A DNA stretch of 5,311 nucleotides from Prevotella sp. Lineage in GTDB: Bacteria; Bacteroidota; Bacteroidia; Bacteroidales; Bacteroidaceae. The notes below the pieces were generated by a model that saw only the letters and a program-made list of their open reading frames with translations, ran no database searches and had not been told where the DNA came from. The translations under genes were made by a program, and so were the position numbers. This document shows positions 1 through 5,311 of the stretch, in pieces. Within the stretch, counting starts at the first letter, position 1. The number at the start of each line of letters is the position of its first letter. The stretch is from positions 1-5,311 of the forward strand of contig JAJPYV010000422.1 in the NCBI GenBank assembly GCA_021204735.1, read 5' to 3'.

Positions 1-33
1 GCTATACATTCCGTGTCTTTGGGGCCAGATCAT
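1..33 (-). CDS. start of an unidentified gene, cut by the window edge
   Basis: An ATG at 33-31 opens a frame of eleven codons (MIWPQRHGMYS) that is still open at the window edge. It is preceded by a strong purine-rich Shine-Dalgarno site, AAGGAG at 40-45, with about six bases to the ATG. That is unusually good for this genome type and is the main reason to believe the gene is real. Too little protein is visible to name it. Its place downstream of the replication initiator and the small 98-residue ORF suggests another replication, mobilization or phage-structure gene of the same element; this is inference from position only. Confidence 0.45.
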   Translation of the reverse strand, partial: MIWPQRHGMYS

Positions 34-135
34 TCTTCTCTCCTTCTCCCCGGCCGGCGTGCCATCTATAGATCTCTCTATAGATAGGTACACGTGAGAT
101 CGGCCAAAGTGGCAATTTGGAGTGAAAAAAAAGTT
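34..135. other. intergenic region with repeats and small inverted repeats
   Basis: No gene is seen here. The stretch holds a GC-rich palindrome CCGGCCGG (50-57), two copies of TCTATAGAT whose starts are exactly 12 bases apart (65-73 and 77-85; TCTATAGA is itself palindromic), and an inverted repeat CCAAA/TTTGG (104-108 and 116-120, 7-base loop). A second inverted repeat, GTGAAA/TTTCAC (122-127 and 134-139), overlaps the stop codon of the upstream small ORF and has a run of A (T on the coding strand) in its loop. The set could be a weak terminator followed by operator-like sites for the gene beginning at 33. No convincing TAnnTTTG promoter was found. Confidence 0.4.
65..85. repeat. pair of 12-bp-spaced TCTATAGAT repeats
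   Basis: TCTATAGAT occurs at 65-73 and again at 77-85, giving a 12-base period. The core TCTATAGA reads the same on both strands, and the first copy extends to a 10-base palindrome (64-73). Two palindromic half-sites about one helical turn apart fit binding sites for a dimeric protein. They lie 31 bases or more upstream of the start codon at 33, where a promoter or operator would be expected. The function is inferred. Confidence 0.4.
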
Positions 136-432
136 TCACAGGACTTCAAGCACGTCGTAGTCCTCGTCGTAGGTGAGCCTGAATCTGGCGTTCCAAGGGT
201 CGGACAGGTCGGGGCCGGTGTGCGCCAAGAAAAGCCTGCGCGGCACCGCCGGACCATCAGCAGCATGTCGGACACGCTTGAACAGCGCTTTCAATACAGA
301 AAACGGTACTGTCCCGGATCGGCGTAAATCACCGTACATACGATGCCCGGAACAGCAAAGAAGAGGCGCATCGCACTTCGACACGTCCCTTCTTTCAACA
401 GTCGCGGCACGGCCGCCGAGAGCATCAGTCAC
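136..432 (-). CDS. small hypothetical protein downstream of the replication initiator
   Basis: This frame encodes 98 residues from a GTG start at 432-430 that overlaps the TGA stop of the replication initiator (GTGA overlap), which suggests translational coupling. An in-frame ATG (residue 32, 339-337) would give a 67-residue protein. The first half is basic, with VERR, LRR and KRVRH segments. The last 14 residues are acidic and end in a YDEDYD cluster. Codons in the second half look like coding use (GAC, CTG, TTC, AAC), supporting a real gene over the competing plus-strand frame at 173-493. I do not recognise the family. In filamentous phages the slot after gene II/X often holds a small ssDNA-binding protein, but no such motif is visible here, so that role is only a position-based guess. 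Confidence 0.5.
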   Translation of the reverse strand: MTDALGGRAATVERRDVSKCDAPLLCCSGHRMYGDLRRSGTVPFSVLKALFKRVRHAADGPAVPRRLFLAHTGPDLSDPWNARFRLTYDEDYDVLEVL

Positions 433-1391
433 TCAATCAATTTCGACATCTGTATATGATAAAGCGCGTCAATTTTCTTATCAAGCTCATTGATGAACTC
501 ATCGCCGCCAGTCAGAGCTCCGCCCTGAGCTATTGTTTTGTGCACGTATTGTTTCAACTTATACGACTGCTGCGGAGTCAACAGACCGGCCTTCTGCTCG
601 TTCTTGATAATGTCTATCAAGGGCGCCTCTCCTCCATTAAGTTGTACAAGAGCCAAAATGCCTGCGGTGTTAAGGTCTGACACGCACTTGAAATTTATAC
701 CTTCAAGCGTTATTATAGGCGATTTCTGTATATTATGATACATATCACGCCAAATGTCAAGCAGTCGGCGATAGAACGGTGTCTCATAAAGCATAGAAGC
801 ATATACGCCTCCCGGAACCTTCAACAGCTTCGACAAGCCGCTCTTATACTTAATCTCATACCGGATGATGTTTTTGCCTTCAGCGTCTTTAGGGATAGCA
901 ACGCCATTGTGCTTACATTCATCAACCTTGTCATAGAAGGACAAGGCCATCTTCCTGCTGTTAAGTTCATACCGGATACTATTCGGCTGCTGGAGCCTAT
1001 TATATCGCGACAACTGTCCCAAGCCGTTGTAGTATTCGGAAGGCAGATGAGTAACTGAAAACGACGCTCCGAATTCAAGACTCCAGACATGACTAAACCG
1101 CATCGGAACTCCAAGTTGACGTGAAAGCCATTCAATGGCCTTTTCCACCCCCTTGATGTATAGAAAGTGGAAATTATCCTTATACAGATATTTGGATAAT
1201 GATCCCATCACCATCAAAAATTTGGGTGTCGATTTTATAAACATGTTGCCCAAGTGAGCGGTCCACATGATAGGTCGGCCTTCTTTCGGAAAGTACCTGA
1301 CATTTTCAAGTTCGTGCTGGCGCTCAGGAAGGTATTCAAATGCCCCTTGTGCCAGCCCTTTGTCATACACTAATGTAACGCGATCTATCAT
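429..1391 (-). CDS. phage/plasmid replication initiator, gene II/X (Phage_CRI) type
   Basis: This gene encodes about 320 residues from ATG at 1391-1389, beginning MIDRVTLVYD as this family usually does. Family-like blocks, numbered from that start, are GSLSKYL (63-69), LEFGASFSV (105-113), FYDK (152-155) and the strand IIRYEIKYKS (175-184). This matches the pattern of filamentous-phage gene II and related plasmid initiators, which nick one strand at the double-strand origin to start rolling-circle replication. I could not assign the catalytic tyrosine with certainty. A TTG at 1445 would add 18 residues (proline-rich, MGPGPLPPRF), but that stretch lies within a hairpin and the GGAGG in front of the TTG is too close, so the ATG is preferred. 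The gene overlaps the next ORF by GTGA. No TAnnTTTG promoter is seen in the 156 bases upstream, so transcription may come from the upstream operon. An initiator gene implies that the element replicates as a circle after excision. Confidence 0.8.
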   Translation of the reverse strand: MIDRVTLVYDKGLAQGAFEYLPERQHELENVRYFPKEGRPIMWTAHLGNMFIKSTPKFLMVMGSLSKYLYKDNFHFLYIKGVEKAIEWLSRQLGVPMRFSHVWSLEFGASFSVTHLPSEYYNGLGQLSRYNRLQQPNSIRYELNSRKMALSFYDKVDECKHNGVAIPKDAEGKNIIRYEIKYKSGLSKLLKVPGGVYASMLYETPFYRRLLDIWRDMYHNIQKSPIITLEGINFKCVSDLNTAGILALVQLNGGEAPLIDIIKNEQKAGLLTPQQSYKLKQYVHKTIAQGGALTGGDEFINELDKKIDALYHIQMSKLIE

Positions 1392-1422
1392 AATGTCGGT
1401 CTTTTCGAATTTTTCAAAACGT

Positions 1423-1505
1423 GGAGGAAGGGGCCCCGGACCCAATCCTCCGTTTTTATATTCCCGTTACCGGGAATAAATTCATGGTCTCTATATAATA
1501 GGGAC
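1423..1505. other. cluster of three hairpins before rep; candidate double-strand origin
   Basis: Three inverted repeats lie side by side. First, GGAGGA (1423-1428) pairs with TCCTCC (1446-1451), with GGG/CCC nested inside and the palindrome GGGGCCCC at 1430-1437. Second, a perfect 8-bp stem TATTCCCG/CGGGAATA (1459-1466 and 1471-1478) has a four-base TTAC loop. Third, an imperfect hairpin at 1487-1505 has stem GTC-t-CTAT / ATAG-g-GAC and an ATA loop. Neither strand shows a T-run straight after the perfect stem, so it is a poor terminator. Rolling-circle origins usually form such hairpins near the initiator gene, and gene II-type proteins cut inside a hairpin. The origin role is inferred; the hairpins are seen directly. 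Alternatives are operator sites for rep or an RNA leader structure. Confidence 0.5.
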
Positions 1506-1547
1506 TTAGCCTTTTTAGGGCCCCGCTGTAGGGCAATCTTTGTATGA
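1506..1547. other. short spacer after the 168-residue gene
   Basis: This spacer separates the stop codon of the 168-residue gene from the hairpin cluster. On the minus strand a weak GCCC/GGGC stem could form just after that gene, followed by an A-rich stretch. It lacks the T-run of a standard terminator. Readthrough from the helix-turn-helix operon into rep is therefore possible. Confidence 0.3.
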
Positions 1548-2054
1548 TTACTTCTTCTCATGACGGCAGCCCTCCATGCGTAATACACGTGGCTTGACTT
1601 CCCTCACTTTGCACACCGTTTCGTTCAGGTCTTGCCCGTGTTTTCCGGCAATAATTTCTGATACAATTTTCTTCGCCACAGATTTCTTATTCATAGCCAC
1701 GAAAATAACCATTATCTTTCGATCCAAAGAGAAATGGAAAATCAAGGCATCCTCCGTTCCCGCCATATCTCCATAGGCATAGTCAGGACACGTTACGTCG
1801 TAGTTGAATATCCCCGTAATGTAACCATTATGGACGAGCTGCATGACAGCGCCATTATCCCGATATACCGGGCCATTCTCATGCGCATCATACAGATAGC
1901 AATAGAAGATGCCGTCTCTGGACTTGCGGGCCATCCTTTCAAACGGTCCATAATTACCAGTTGACTTAACGGTGTTATATCTCCTTGACTTGATATGCCT
2001 TGAATCATCAAGATGAAGTACATAACAGGCATCGAATATATTTCGGTGAGTCAT
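1548..2054 (-). CDS. hypothetical protein, second gene of the HTH operon
   Basis: This gene encodes 168 residues with no family I recognise. Its ATG (2054-2052) overlaps the TGA of the upstream helix-turn-helix gene as ATGA. A textbook Shine-Dalgarno AGGAGG (2061-2066) stands six bases before the ATG, inside the last codons of that gene, so the two are surely co-transcribed and probably translationally coupled. The N-terminal two-thirds alternate hydrophobic and polar residues with many tyrosines (for example IFYCYLYD, 49-56, and LIFHFSLD, 104-111), suggesting beta strands. Residues 112-135 contain a hydrophobic strand (IMVIFVAM) and a KK-rich segment. The tail (149-168) is strongly basic and ends RHEKK. 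No signal peptide or transmembrane helix is evident. It occupies the place of small excision or replication accessory genes in NBU-type elements; an accessory role is inference. Confidence 0.75.
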   Translation of the reverse strand: MTHRNIFDACYVLHLDDSRHIKSRRYNTVKSTGNYGPFERMARKSRDGIFYCYLYDAHENGPVYRDNGAVMQLVHNGYITGIFNYDVTCPDYAYGDMAGTEDALIFHFSLDRKIMVIFVAMNKKSVAKKIVSEIIAGKHGQDLNETVCKVREVKPRVLRMEGCRHEKK

Positions 2055-2329
2055 AATACACCTCCTTTTCTGCAGATGTCCATAGCCCTTGCGTCAAGCT
2101 CGGCCGCAGTGGCCACCCTGTTCCGGTGCAGCCAGCCGTCAAGTTCGACAGCATCAAAGTAGATCAGCTTGCCATTCGGCTTATAGTACGGAATCTTCCG
2201 TGTCGACGTCAGCTTATAGAGATAGTTTTTCGATACCCCTATGTAGTTGGCGACCTCATCAAAGGTGAGGACTTTTTTTGAGCCACCCGTTTCTAATTCG
2301 GGTGCGTTCAATGATGTGTAATTTTTCAT
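2051..2329 (-). CDS. excisionase-type helix-turn-helix DNA-binding protein
   Basis: This gene encodes 92 residues. After a disordered start of about 18 residues, residues 20-42 (VLTFDEVANYIGVSKNYLYKL) form the winged-helix motif of the MerR/excisionase HTH_17 type. A wing follows around KIPYYKPNGKLIYF (45-58), then the helix VELDGWLHRNRV (61-72). This is the usual form of small excisionase or regulatory proteins in Bacteroides integrative elements, where such factors bend att DNA and turn the integrase towards excision, or control excision genes. It is the first gene of a two-gene operon; its end contains the Shine-Dalgarno site for the next gene. The leader in front of it holds a large palindrome and, further up, phased CACTAAT repeats, plausible binding sites for this protein itself. 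Whether it acts as excisionase, as regulator or as both cannot be told from sequence alone. Confidence 0.85.
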   Translation of the reverse strand: MKNYTSLNAPELETGGSKKVLTFDEVANYIGVSKNYLYKLTSTRKIPYYKPNGKLIYFDAVELDGWLHRNRVATAAELDARAMDICRKGGVL

Positions 2330-2360
2330 AACTCTGAAAAATTAAAAATTTAACTTAGGG

Positions 2361-2375
2361 GGTCGCGAGGTCGCG
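2361..2375. repeat. tandem GGTCGCG repeat
   Basis: GGTCGCG occurs twice, separated by a single A (2361-2367 and 2369-2375), in an otherwise AT-rich leader of the helix-turn-helix gene. It may contribute to RNA structure in the leader or to protein binding; nothing more can be said. Confidence 0.35.
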
Positions 2376-2397
2376 TCCGACACCGTTCACCCCGACT

Positions 2398-2420
2398 GTT
2401 GTTAACCGCGGTTTAACAAC
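2398..2420. promoter_or_regulatory. 23-base palindrome, probable operator
   Basis: Arms GTTGTTA (2398-2404) and TAACAAC (2414-2420) are perfect inverted copies. They flank ACCGCGGT (2405-2412), an 8-base palindrome, with only one extra T (2413) breaking full symmetry. It lies just downstream of a possible -7 box and about 69 bases before the helix-turn-helix start codon, a typical place for a repressor operator. As RNA it would also form a strong hairpin in the leader. Confidence 0.5.
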
Positions 2421-2424
2421 GGCG

Positions 2425-2432
2425 CAAAGGAA
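2425..2432 (-). promoter_or_regulatory. possible weak promoter -7 box for the HTH operon
   Basis: On the minus strand this reads TTCCTTTG, one base off the Bacteroidetes TAnnTTTG -7 consensus. About 21 bases upstream there is no TTTG; that place is taken by the edge of the CACTAAT repeat array. A promoter with a poor -33 box beside phased repeats would fit control by a bound activator. This is a tentative call. Confidence 0.3.
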
Positions 2433-2456
2433 ATTAAAAAATAAGGGGATATTACT

Positions 2457-2489
2457 CACTAATGGGCCACTAATGGCCCACTAATAAAG
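2457..2489. repeat. three phased 11-bp CACTAAT repeats (iteron-like)
   Basis: CACTAAT begins at 2457, 2468 and 2479, exactly 11 bases apart, in units CACTAATGGGC, CACTAATGGCC and CACTAATAAAG. A degenerate CTAATG follows at 2490. The first two units together also contain the inverted repeat GGGCC/GGCCC (2464-2468 and 2475-2479). Repeats spaced by one helical turn put bound proteins on the same face of DNA, as for excisionase sites, replication iterons or activator sites. Confidence 0.6.
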
Positions 2490-2533
2490 CTAATGTGCTG
2501 TTAATAAGAAGGTTGGCTCTACGACAGTAAACA

Positions 2534-2568
2534 ATACTACTGACAGATTACGAATCCGCCAGTAGTAT
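2534..2568. terminator. symmetric 35-base stem-loop after the 382-residue gene
   Basis: The outer arms ATACTACTG (2534-2542) and CAGTAGTAT (2560-2568) pair perfectly over 9 bases. Inside them is a symmetric 3x3 mismatch, then a 4-bp stem GATT/AATC (2547-2550 and 2554-2557) around a 3-base loop. It lies 21 bases past the stop codon of the 382-residue gene, so a transcription terminator is the simplest reading. The stem is not GC-rich, and on the minus strand only TGTTT follows, which is a weak tail. A protein-binding or single-strand replication role is also possible. Confidence 0.45.
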
Positions 2569-2589
2569 AAATCACTGATATTTAATATT

Positions 2590-3738
2590 TTAATCGGCTA
2601 ATATATTAAGGTTCGGAAATATCTCCAAAATTAAATTATAGTGTTTCGGATCTTTCTCTTTCTTGATACAATCATTCAAGGAGCCCCTTAAATTTAGGGG
2701 TTTCCCCTTGACACCAAATATCTTTTCAAATGGTATCCAGCTGATGTATTTATACTCATCACGGTCTCTCACTTTTATTGTACCATTCAATTCTAACGCT
2801 CGGCTAACTCCAAAAGCAAAACAAGCCAAAAGGACTTTTGTTTCAAGCCAATGGTATTTCTTATCCATCAATCCTATTTTAATGGCTTTATCAAAATATT
2901 GTCTGGCTTGCTTCCTAACTTTTTTAGGAAACACTTCCAGTGGATCTTTAGTCTTGCGTTTGGTTGTTGGAGCCGCTGCGGTTTGTTCGTCATCATACGG
3001 AACCGCCATTTCAGGGATCACTGCAGTTTGCTTGTCCACTGCGTTATCTGGCAGTTGCGGAGGAGCCACACTTTGGAGCACCGGCTGTGTCACTATGGTT
3101 TGTCCATACGATAAGGGGCCCGTAGTGTCTTGAAGAACATAGCCATTCTTAGGCACGCACTCTTTCACCCATTGTACTTGTTGAGGATCAAGGCTCGGTA
3201 TTGTTTCTATGAATTCAAGAAAATATGATAAGGTTAAATCTTTATCTAAATCCGGCAAGCAGCCCATAAACTGATGCCTGTCATGTACCGGCCTCAAATT
3301 TTTAACCCAGATGAGCAACAGTTCCATATTCGGGAAAGTTTTATTCAGATTCTCATATTCATTAATGTAATGCCGCTGCTTGTCCGTTAGCTGCAACTTG
3401 AATGCTTTACAGATTCCTCTGAAATTTTCCATTTCTGCATCGTTGCAGACAAGATGAGTGATAGCGTCTAAAATCTTTATATCATCATAACTGCACGCCG
3501 AATCCAAGTGAAAGGCACAAATTGCTTGAGTGACAAACAGCCCCATTTCTTGCCCATGCGTTTTATAAATACACTCTCTTAACCATACTTGCTGAGTCGG
3601 ATCAAGGTCAATATAATCTGCGACCTGCCACAAGAACCGGCTATTAGTGACTCTAAGCCACTCATCAAGATAGTTTGCAAAAGCAAGGGAGGAATCGTGT
3701 TCTCCTTCGATCTTCTCTAAAAGTTCTTTCTCGTTCAT
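2590..3738 (-). CDS. hypothetical protein with internal repeat, next to the integrase
   Basis: This gene encodes 382 residues; the family is not recognised. The N-terminal part (about 1-198) appears alpha-helical. It holds a repeated motif, LDPTQQVWLREC (45-56) and LDPQQVQWVKEC (183-194), which share L, D, P, Q, W, E and C in register. A weaker relative may lie at LQLTDKQRHYINEY (115-128). A low-complexity linker rich in P, Q, T and A follows (about 200-260), then a basic KRKTKD patch (260-265). The last domain (about 266-382) contains LLACFAFGVSRALEL (303-317) and a lysine-rich end. There is no signal peptide or membrane segment, so it is probably cytosolic, perhaps DNA-associated. It has its own promoter and stands between integrase and excisionase-type genes, where NBU-like elements carry genes affecting excision. 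That link is positional inference. Confidence 0.8.
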   Translation of the reverse strand: MNEKELLEKIEGEHDSSLAFANYLDEWLRVTNSRFLWQVADYIDLDPTQQVWLRECIYKTHGQEMGLFVTQAICAFHLDSACSYDDIKILDAITHLVCNDAEMENFRGICKAFKLQLTDKQRHYINEYENLNKTFPNMELLLIWVKNLRPVHDRHQFMGCLPDLDKDLTLSYFLEFIETIPSLDPQQVQWVKECVPKNGYVLQDTTGPLSYGQTIVTQPVLQSVAPPQLPDNAVDKQTAVIPEMAVPYDDEQTAAAPTTKRKTKDPLEVFPKKVRKQARQYFDKAIKIGLMDKKYHWLETKVLLACFAFGVSRALELNGTIKVRDRDEYKYISWIPFEKIFGVKGKPLNLRGSLNDCIKKEKDPKHYNLILEIFPNLNILAD

Positions 3739-3766
3739 GACTGTGCGGTTTTATTCGGGTAAATCA

Positions 3767-3788
3767 GACAGACTCTCAAACGTCTGTC
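3767..3788 (-). promoter_or_regulatory. hairpin in the leader of the 382-residue gene
   Basis: A perfect 7-bp inverted repeat, GACAGAC (3767-3773) and GTCTGTC (3782-3788), flanks an 8-base loop. It lies between the predicted promoter and the start codon, 28 bases before the ATG. It could act as an RNA leader structure or as an operator. The bases after it on the minus strand are not T-rich, so it is not a convincing terminator. Confidence 0.4.
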
Positions 3789-3807
3789 CGGCTACTAATT
3801 ACGCGGA

Positions 3808-3841
3808 CAAAATTAATAAAGATTCCCGCTGTAGGCACAAA
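3808..3841 (-). promoter_or_regulatory. Bacteroidetes-type promoter for the 382-residue gene
   Basis: On the minus strand the -33 box TTTG (3838-3841) and the -7 box TAATTTTG (3808-3815) are separated by 22 bases, matching the TTTG / TAnnTTTG pattern of the Bacteroidetes housekeeping sigma factor. Transcription would begin near 3800, leaving a leader of about 60 bases with a hairpin. The -33 box lies about 20 bases past the integrase stop, so the two genes can be expressed separately. Confidence 0.6.
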
Positions 3842-3860
3842 AAAGACGAGAATACGCAGT

Positions 3861-5072
3861 TTATGAGAGAGTGAAAGACGGTAAACTGTCTATTGCATTG
3901 CGTTTCAGGCTGTCTATTGCGTGCAAATACTTTTCAGTCATAGCAATGGAAGAATGCCCCAGAAGTGAAGAAACGGTCTTAATGTCGGCTCCGTTTGAAA
4001 GCACATTTACCGCAAATGAGTGTCTTGCGCAATGCCATGAGATATTCTTGTCTATGCCGGCTCTTTTTACCCACTTTTTCAACGATTTACATGATGCCTC
4101 GTAAGTGGGCAGAACGAAAATTTTGTCGTATGGCTCGCCCTTTTCGCCTATCAATGACAAGAGATTGTCATTGAGCGGGATTTGTACGCTTGCGCTCGCG
4201 CTGTGTCCGTCCGTCTTTATCTGTGTGAAGGATAATAGCCTATTTGAAAAGTCCACATTTGCAAAGGTCAACTCCCTGACGTCACACCAGCGTAGACCCG
4301 TGTACAATGAAAACAGAAACGCCCGCCTAATATTAGGGTTCCCTTGGAACGGGGTATTTACCAGCATTTTAATTTCATCAAGCGACAGAATGGCCTTTCT
4401 TATTACGTTCTTGTCTACTTTAATGCTAATGCCCTCGCACGGGTTTTTCATAAAGACATCGTGTTCAGTCGCGTATTTCACGACCTTTTTAAACCGGGCA
4501 TAAATAGTGTGGGCTCCCTCGCCGCTACTGTGTTTTTGCAGATAATCCACAAAGGACAAGACAAAATCCTTGTCTATTTGCGCGGGCCGGATTCCCTTTG
4601 CGTAGATACTGTATTTTGGAGAGTCATTTAGAAAGTCCACAAATCGTTTGTAAGCGACTTTTAGATTTCGTGTGTCCGCCTTTGTGTAATTGTCAATGTA
4701 TTCACGGAAATACTGCATGAACTCCGTGTCTTTCTTCTTGGGGATCCGATGCCCGGTTTCTCGCAGGTTGTATTCTTGTTCTCCCTCGTAGCGCAATTTC
4801 TTGGCTATTTCCGCCGTCTCTTTGTTATGCTCCCTTTCCTCCGGGGTCCGTGGATTGTCGTAAAGAAAAAGTTTCAGCGTTTTCTTCTGCCTAATCGGTT
4901 TCAAGGTCTTTTCGCCCGTTTTCGGGTTTTTCTTCGTTTCATGTCCTAAATAGTACATCAGGTAAAGACTGATTCGCCCGTCTGAAAGGGGCTGCGCGTA
5001 AATTTTGGGATTGTCGGTTTTGTTTCCGCCTATAAGACGGGTAATATAAGGTGAAACTAATGTATTTGCCAT
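3861..5072 (-). CDS. int: tyrosine recombinase (site-specific integrase)
   Basis: This gene encodes 403 residues and is complete. The N-terminal part (about 1-105) is a lysine-rich arm-binding-type region, followed by a SAM-like core-binding domain (about 115-215) and a catalytic domain (about 225-395). The full catalytic set is visible: R261 in TGLRWCD, K286 in QIKTDGH, H347 and R350 in HCARH, H373 in LLGHSS and nucleophile Y382 in EKYLH. Such enzymes cut and join DNA through a 3'-phosphotyrosine link. Its start codon is 187 bases from the tRNA-Leu gene, the standard arrangement for an element inserted at a tRNA 3' end; NBU1 of Bacteroides is a known example that uses a tRNA-Leu site. The ATG follows a good promoter closely, and no strong Shine-Dalgarno site is present, which is normal for Bacteroidetes. 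Three repeats overlapping its promoter suggest autoregulation. Confidence 0.95.
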   Translation of the reverse strand: MANTLVSPYITRLIGGNKTDNPKIYAQPLSDGRISLYLMYYLGHETKKNPKTGEKTLKPIRQKKTLKLFLYDNPRTPEEREHNKETAEIAKKLRYEGEQEYNLRETGHRIPKKKDTEFMQYFREYIDNYTKADTRNLKVAYKRFVDFLNDSPKYSIYAKGIRPAQIDKDFVLSFVDYLQKHSSGEGAHTIYARFKKVVKYATEHDVFMKNPCEGISIKVDKNVIRKAILSLDEIKMLVNTPFQGNPNIRRAFLFSLYTGLRWCDVRELTFANVDFSNRLLSFTQIKTDGHSASASVQIPLNDNLLSLIGEKGEPYDKIFVLPTYEASCKSLKKWVKRAGIDKNISWHCARHSFAVNVLSNGADIKTVSSLLGHSSIAMTEKYLHAIDSLKRNAIDSLPSFTLS

Positions 5073-5100
5073 GGCTCGTTACTTTTATTGGTTCTGCCGG

Positions 5101-5133
5101 CAAAGGTAACATTAATTTTAATTTTAGGGCAAA
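5101..5133 (-). promoter_or_regulatory. integrase promoter, Bacteroidetes type
   Basis: On the minus strand the -33 box TTTG (5130-5133) and the perfect -7 box TACCTTTG (5101-5108) are 21 bases apart. Transcription would begin roughly 20 bases before the integrase ATG, giving a very short leader. The -33 box falls inside the TAGGGCAAA repeat array, so a protein bound there would block RNA polymerase. Confidence 0.75.
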
Positions 5134-5163
5134 TTTAGGGCAAACTCCAACAAAAATAGGGCA
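5125..5163. repeat. three TAGGGCA direct repeats, candidate integrase arm sites
   Basis: TAGGGCA occurs at 5125-5131, 5136-5142 and 5157-5163. The starts are 11 and 21 bases apart, that is about one and two helical turns. The first two copies extend to TTAGGGCAAA. Placement between the integrase gene and the tRNA attachment side is typical of arm-type binding sites for the integrase N-terminal domain, or of excisionase sites. The overlap with the -33 box points to autoregulation. Confidence 0.6.
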
Positions 5164-5183
5164 GATAAGCACAAATAAAAGAA

Positions 5184-5213
5184 GAAAACCAACGCTGTAA
5201 AGCATTGGTTTTC
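5184..5213 (-). terminator. terminator hairpin between tRNA-Leu and integrase
   Basis: GAAAACCAA (5184-5192) pairs perfectly with TTGGTTTTC (5205-5213). After one mismatch, an inner GC/GC pair closes a TGTAAA loop. On the minus strand the stem is followed by a T-rich run (TTCTTTTATTTG), and the plus strand also has T-rich sequence after it, so it may work both ways. It should end the tRNA transcript and keep it from reading into the integrase gene. Confidence 0.65.
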
Positions 5214-5239
5214 ATTGTTTTTGGCTGCCTTTGTCTGAC

Positions 5240-5255
5240 TTGGTTTTCCTACCAA
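5240..5255. repeat. small inverted repeat beside the tRNA 3' end
   Basis: TTGGT (5240-5244) and ACCAA (5251-5255) flank a 6-base spacer, only three bases beyond the tRNA 3' end. Short inverted arms around a 6-8 base spacer are the usual shape of a tyrosine-recombinase core site, so this is a possible part of the attachment core. The first nine bases, TTGGTTTTC, also repeat the arm at 5205-5213. Confidence 0.35.
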
Positions 5256-5258
5256 AAG

Positions 5259-5311
5259 TGCCCCGGACGGGGTTCGAACCCGTACGGGCATTCCTGCCCA
5301 AGGGATTTTAA
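5259..5311 (-). tRNA. tRNA-Leu(UAA), 3' half, cut by the window edge
   Basis: The minus strand reads from the anticodon loop to the 3' end. U33 is at 5311 and the anticodon UAA at 5310-5308, followed by the 3' anticodon stem TCCCT. Next comes a long class II variable arm with GGGC/GCCC stem (5286-5289 and 5296-5299). The T arm ACGGG-TTCGAAC-CCCGT lies at 5267-5283. The acceptor strand CCGGGGC is at 5260-5266 and the discriminator A at 5259. No CCA is encoded. The long variable arm, the UAA anticodon and the AAAATCCCT sequence, like that of E. coli tRNA-Leu(UAA), support the identity. The 3' end faces the integrase, marking it as the probable integration target. Confidence 0.93.

Follow-up and report, generated by a model that had tools for sequence, protein, structure and literature searches.

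A tRNA-associated integrative element of Bacteroidales with a filamentous-phage-type replication initiator

What kind of mobile element combines a tyrosine recombinase beside a tRNA gene with a replication initiator of the filamentous-phage type? This question is raised by a 5311-bp stretch of DNA (the window), which is the entire contig JAJPYV010000422.1 of a draft genome assigned to Prevotella sp. Five genes and a piece of tRNA-Leu lie colinear on its minus strand, with the genes in the order integrase (int), ORF382, excisionase (xis)-type helix-turn-helix (HTH) gene, ORF168, and replication gene (rep). Comparison with related loci showed that this module belongs to a family of small integrative elements, roughly 6 kb in length, in Bacteroidales and some flavobacteria. 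We read the window, with a probability of about 0.5, as most of a small Bacteroidales integrative element that is predicted to excise and to be copied by rolling-circle replication and that likely spreads as a satellite in tailed-phage particles. The genes and the tRNA piece are as follows.

3861..5072, minus strand: int, tyrosine recombinase of 403 aa (PF00589, 1.5e-21; PF13102, 7.1e-15)
2590..3738, minus strand: ORF382, no Pfam family above cut-off; matches at the same place in other elements
2051..2329, minus strand: xis-type HTH protein of 92 aa (HTH_17, 9.7e-12; TIGR01764, 3.7e-12; phrog_66)
1548..2054, minus strand: ORF168, conserved gene upstream of rep that recurs at rep loci
429..1391, minus strand: rep, filamentous-phage-type (Phage_CRI) replication initiator of 320 aa (PF05144, 24.2 bits; cut-off, 21.7)
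5258..5311, minus strand: 3' part of tRNA-Leu(UAA), 54 nt from anticodon loop to acceptor end (from the sequence and its match to tRNA-Leu(taa) genes of the genus)

The initial annotation of this DNA had placed a tyrosine recombinase, an excisionase-type HTH protein, and a gene II/X-type initiator in one minus-strand module, and all three were found there, colinear. It had also proposed a search of rep against Phage_CRI, the family that Pfam labels 'Replication-associated protein G2P N-terminal' (PF05144); the score lay above the cut-off, and the Reps of four relatives scored 64, 62, 26, and 36 bits. Residues Y120, Y153, K155, E158, N174, R177, and E179 were invariant in 17 aligned Reps and D154 was nearly so; Y153 is the putative nicking tyrosine. 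AlphaFold2 models were obtained for the window Rep (pLDDT 86.3, pTM 0.80) and for ORF168 of locus L013 (pLDDT 81.2, pTM 0.80); searches by sequence found no PDB relative of either protein.

The protein database contained two other relatives of the window Rep, with identities of 86% and 38%. As a lone query this Rep retrieved no locus among the genome contigs or viral contigs searched, and a Parabacteroides record in a plasmid collection was found with the window Rep itself. A five-row Rep alignment yielded 12 genome loci and three IMG/VR loci, and later alignments added four further IMG/VR loci. At E ≤ 0.001, a 19-row Rep profile matched 19 of 398 genomes of the genus and 22 of 393 genomes of the order, and at E < 1e-50 it matched 14 and 12, respectively (the window's own genome included in each count). 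Named carrier records belonged to Bacteroidales, other Bacteroidia, and two flavobacteria (L017 and L020).

Mapping of 40 rep loci, including the window, revealed int at 32, xis at 32, and ORF168 at 31, in 30 of which it immediately preceded rep. A DUF5681-like ORF was present at 19 loci and an ORF382-like ORF at 12. Int was missing at eight loci, several of which had a contig end close to rep. These counts exclude L011 (no rep), L019 and L023 (the same records as L009 and L010), 14 rep-less int-related loci of L050–L066, the strong match L110 at a contig start, and the weaker Rep profile matches except L134; the near-copy pairs L021/L022 and L025/L026 were counted as separate rows. ORF382 partially matched ORFs at the same position in L015, L011, and L063, and none of 1855 candidates in the protein database was related to it.

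Element boundaries were visible in many of these relatives. Direct repeats of 12–35 bp bound 22 of the 32 int-bearing loci, and in 19 of the 22 they overlapped or adjoined a tRNA or transfer-messenger RNA (tmRNA) gene, the targets being tRNA-Leu, -Glu, -Met, -Arg, and -Phe genes and the tmRNA gene. The 22 bounded elements measured 5.1–10.8 kb with a median of about 6.3 kb; L022, whose bounds were set by hand, was kept out of the 22, and its inclusion gives a median of 6.2 kb. The assignment of attachment (att) sites was our choice, based either on overlap with a tRNA or tmRNA gene (19 loci) or on a repeat present on both sides of the module (L021, L026, and L120), and repeats of 12–15 bp at L018, L024, L051, L116, L127, L129, and L133 were not counted as att. 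The bounding repeat of L050 is just 12 bp, which is weak by itself. In L013, a 14-bp repeat at tRNA-Leu(CAA) delimits 5.7 kb with seven genes, and in L026 a 28-bp repeat at the end of a flanking ORF delimits 8.1 kb. IMG/VR provided two more bounded cases, L171 at tRNA-Leu(UAA) with 19 bp and L174 at the tmRNA gene with 27 bp. Several elements also carried repeated 20–27-bp blocks close to both ends, which look like integrase arm sites. The Phage_CRI Rep, the recurring gene order, the direct repeats at tRNA ends in relatives, and the patchy distribution thus bear out the earlier suggestion of an integrative rolling-circle element of Bacteroidales.

As the window is the whole contig, the element is truncated at its rep end and perhaps also at its tRNA end, and the second att copy lies out of view; the window's own bin, which is 81% complete, contained no other copy of the tRNA-Leu 3' end. 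The tRNA piece is presumably the att side adjoining int. The description of a complete integrase beside tRNA-Leu held for the 403-aa integrase, whereas the tRNA is represented by its 54-nt 3' part and ARAGORN called no complete tRNA in the window. The piece aligned to sequences in 125 other genomes of the genus (150 searched) with identities of 76–86%, and ARAGORN reported tRNA-Leu(taa) in all 29 of the best-matching loci that were read. No window-type integrase was present within about 1.5 kb of tRNA-Leu(UAA) at these 29 loci, suggesting that the site is often empty of that integrase. The closest copy, with 91% identity compared with at most 86% in the genus, came from a genome of another family, so that the contig may be misbinned and its host other than that of the bin; the host assignment of the window is accordingly uncertain.

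Next, we focused on the DNA adjoining rep. In relatives, this DNA contains an AT-rich palindrome, most clearly seen as CTTATAATAAG, and, some ten bases further on, an inverted repeat around GTTACC/GGTAAC. We built a hidden Markov model (HMM) of the site from 16 downstream copies and used it to scan both strands of the 40 loci, 637 kb in all. Rep-strand matches at E ≤ 0.01 numbered 14 at rep starts and 17 behind rep ends, with none elsewhere in the 637 kb, and at E ≤ 1 two matches occurred elsewhere; the upstream copies had no part in the training, whereas 16 of the 17 downstream copies did. Three opposite-strand matches at E ≤ 0.01 coincided with the same palindromes. At least one site was found at 20 of the 40 loci, and at 11 loci sites in the same direction lay on both sides of rep. 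Among four additional rep loci outside the HMM, L173 (both sides) and L174 (upstream) matched and L171 and L172 did not.

For the hairpin, 29 of the 31 site matches were aligned (the upstream sites of L120 and L122 were omitted, and L025 had earlier been dropped as a near copy of L026). A stem of at least 5 was present in the second half of 21 of the 29 sites, whereas 300 letter shuffles gave 3.55 such sites on average and 9 at most, and the stem-forming sites contained ten different left arms. In a pair count on the alignment, the given structure paired 36.9% of cells, no better than controls, and after a shift by two columns the value was 65%; the structure line was thus out of register, and the pair count lends the hairpin no support. 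In the window, a site of similar layout precedes the rep ATG by about 70 nt, with no significant HMM match.

1459..1505, minus strand: candidate origin, picked out by eye; AT-rich palindrome GTCCCTATTATATAGAGAC, spacer, and hairpin TATTCCCG/CGGGAATA with an 8-bp stem

The layout of the family site resembles that of a pT181-type double-strand origin, which is described in the available part of its source as a nic site in a hairpin with an inverted-repeat bind site immediately downstream (PMC9371924). The likeness to pT181-type and MobT–Rep_trans systems consists in this order of nick hairpin and bind site, whereas the window Rep belongs to Phage_CRI rather than Rep_trans and 11 relatives carry two direct copies of the site around rep. 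Alternatively, the site may be a regulatory element, e.g., an operator in front of rep and of the gene that follows it.

Under the favored reading, the integrase and the HTH protein would excise the element from tRNA-Leu, and Rep would bind via the inverted repeat beside the AT-rich palindrome and nick the palindrome. Nicking by Rep would then drive rolling-circle copying, and a tailed helper phage would package the copies, with some members presumably aided by a terminase small subunit (TerS) of their own.

The signs of packaging come from cargo genes, for which we analyzed 105 proteins of the bounded elements and L022, leaving out 25 of 130 listed ORFs. L026 encodes a TerS (phrog_309, 4e-27) that shares 36.8% identity with a Streptococcus satellite phage Javan259 protein, together with a tape measure protein that matched tail families down to 1.1e-11 (phrog_25241) and shares 44.7% identity with an unnamed Bacteroides phage BS-TP3 protein. 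A 139-aa protein of L050 aligned with the N-terminal stretch of an ORF in phage scaffold MT840062.1 (33.8% identity over 93%, E 3e-4); in our reading of this record, which is without annotation, the rest of the ORF would be a terminase large subunit and the ORF behind it portal-like, and the L050 protein would be a putative TerS. The PHROG match of the L050 protein (phrog_2412, 5.9e-15) is a family without function. The DUF5681-like ORF of L013 shares 49.5% identity with a Bacteroides phage BF1-TP2 gene located in the same stretch as the tyrosine recombinase of that phage. The flavobacterial elements carry possible defense genes, namely a Tmn (YobI ATPase) protein in L017 (3092-6742; 8.2e-77) and a SIR2/ThsA-like protein in L020 (2903-8095; 3.4e-31) along with DUF4365 and DUF4238 proteins. 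The TerS, tape measure, and defense genes in single relatives are marks of phage satellites, not proof.

We tentatively consider a bolder version, which we regard as less probable than the reading above: a new class of tailed-phage satellites in Bacteroidales and flavobacteria that combine a filamentous-phage initiator with one origin copy on either side of rep, both in the same direction. Replication running from one origin to the other might yield circles that lack rep or minicircles with rep alone; in addition, some members would bring TerS and a tape measure protein to take over the packaging and tail of the helper.

Several observations weigh against spread as a satellite or against the model in general. 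No packaging gene was seen in the window as far as the contig reaches, and among the 22 bounded elements a TerS was recognized in one by profile (L026) and suggested in one by inference (L050). The DUF5681-like ORF was considered as a TerS candidate, but this found no support. Its best PHROG terminase match among five members was 0.015 (L013) with no PDB match below 0.1, and its phage neighbors are lysogeny genes or genes of no known function, with the ORF located by the integrase in two of three phages. The TerS family phrog_57 was matched by two of the 105 cargo proteins (best 5.1e-4) and by none among ten inspected. Three reps had no match in 50,697 phage records. The integrase family serves other elements too, as 14 of 17 int-related loci showed no rep in the stretch fetched. 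Half of the rep loci (20/40), including the window, had no site match at E ≤ 0.01. Finally, the window tRNA lies at the int side and on the strand of int, unlike the 17 bounded relatives with a tRNA, in which it lies at the end away from int with its 3' end toward the element; this might reflect an acceptor core that is nearly palindromic or the presence of another element at the same site.

The main rival to the satellite reading is an integrative mobilizable element (IME) in which Rep would also act as the relaxase, with the site flanking rep serving as oriT and transfer proceeding via the type IV secretion system of a resident conjugative element. We consider this possible, if rather less probable than satellite spread. 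The available parts of PMC9371924 and PMC7563843 describe a relationship between MobT relaxases and Rep_trans initiators, as well as streptococcal IMEs that use a Rep-Trans relaxase. The size and the int/xis/tRNA layout of the element fit such a lifestyle, as does the part of ORF382 held in common with the nonreplicating Bacteroides unit (NBU)-like element L011. Against this, the window Rep had no match to PF02486 (Rep_trans) up to E 1, with one relative (L010) reaching 0.045, and relatives carry TerS and tape measure genes. In addition, no relaxase, transfer gene, coat, or Zot family was among the 25 Pfam families listed of the 40 matched by the 105 cargo proteins. Family-profile scans of the window proteins, which represent an incomplete element, likewise turned up no relaxase family. 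The lack of a recognized transfer or packaging gene in most bounded members would suit a self-contained, plasmid-like integrative replicon whose spread is purely vertical or by natural uptake and in which the TerS and defense genes are passing cargo; the patchy distribution over genera and families together with the conserved module calls for frequent transfer, which renders this explanation improbable.

An integrated inovirus, intact or decayed, was the other possibility raised by the initial annotation, and it fared worst, being in our estimate very improbable. The Phage_CRI initiator would fit it, and in the Parabacteroides locus L027 several small ORFs follow rep, some of them membrane-protein-like by eye. 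However, Zot was detected in none of 20 element-bearing genomes, including the window's bin, with the positive control found in five of 14 named genomes, and neither of the 25-family listings from the Pfam and PHROG cargo scans included an inovirus major coat protein, short coat proteins being easily missed in such scans. The bounded relatives also have little DNA behind rep (about 0.9 kb with two ORFs in L013), and their likeness in this region argues against random decay.

Initiators of Inoviridae include M13 gene II and CTXphi RstA. The element shares the Phage_CRI-type initiator with this family and differs in that no Zot-type gene was found, in its tyrosine integrase at tRNA genes, and in the sites flanking rep at 11 loci. 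NBU-type mobilizable elements of Bacteroides were compared through L011, an NBU-like locus (6293-13981) encoding an integrase, an ATPase, a DUF6043 ORF, an HTH protein, an AAA_25 ATPase, a DUF6371 protein, and a 474-aa ORF. The order of tyrosine integrase, ORF, and excisionase-type HTH gene is alike, and residues 268-351 of ORF382 match the DUF6043 ORF at the equivalent place of L011, whereas the HTH gene is followed by an ATPase, a DUF6371 protein, and a long ORF in L011 and by ORF168 and Rep in the element. The parallel to NBUs drawn earlier thus holds at this one point of shared sequence, with a relaxase not seen.

Phage-inducible chromosomal islands (PICIs) are described in the available part of PMC6092414 as having an integrase, an excisionase, specific att sites, a primase-rep module, a size of about 15 kb, terS in some, and induction and packaging by a helper. 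The element resembles them in int, xis, and a replication gene and in possible defense cargo in some members, with terS recognized by profile in L026 and suggested in L050; the att trait is found in relatives, whereas the window has the genes with the att pair not visible. It differs in the Phage_CRI initiator in place of primase-rep, in its size of about 6 kb, and in its occurrence in Bacteroidales and flavobacteria. Marine Charybdis elements have a similar size, with an archaeal host shown and no known replication gene found, as far as the available part of PMC12324425 states. We do not assign the element to the inoviruses, given the Zot result, to the PICIs, given its replication module and size, or to the NBU-type elements, as no relaxase was seen. 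The literature listings searched, which largely did not cover bioRxiv and subscription papers, showed no published description of such a family.

The remaining features of the window are as follows.

5184..5213, minus strand: terminator-like hairpin of 13 pairs between the tRNA and int (pattern only)
5120..5141, no strand: pair of 11-nt direct repeats, AATTTTAGGGC and AAATTTAGGGC, on the upstream side of int; possible integrase arm sites
1..428, no strand: contig end without assigned feature, GC about 54–55%, no relative found

The 11-nt repeats are read as candidate arm sites on account of their position, which is like that of the 20–27-nt repeats at both ends of several relatives. In the contig end, a 98-aa frame had no relative in the 149 other genomes of the genus searched. 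Two overlapping minus-strand frames lie directly behind rep (136-432 and 291-425), and separate searches found no relative of either. As DNA, the region gave just 28–38-nt matches in three of 150 genomes, two of which were inspected and judged to be chance. Two further observations concern the relatives. Just beyond the element end of L021 (9829-16670) lies a CRISPR-Cas9-like locus encoding a large protein with RuvC_III and HNH_4, a RhuM-family protein, and a Cas1-family protein, and L022 contains homologous ORFs (12635-19792). The 105 cargo proteins include one transposase of the ISL3 type (PF01610, 1.4e-51), its identification with L117 7212-8204 (330 aa) being a guess.

PICIs replicate by primase-rep modules, according to the available part of PMC6092414, and a compact rolling-circle family, whether satellite or mobilizable, would differ from them in this respect. 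If our reading is true, the family joins filamentous-phage-type replication to integrative elements in Bacteroidales and offers a minimal replicon for this order. How small Bacteroidales islands move would thereby become experimentally testable, with the origin-like site around rep as a concrete prediction.

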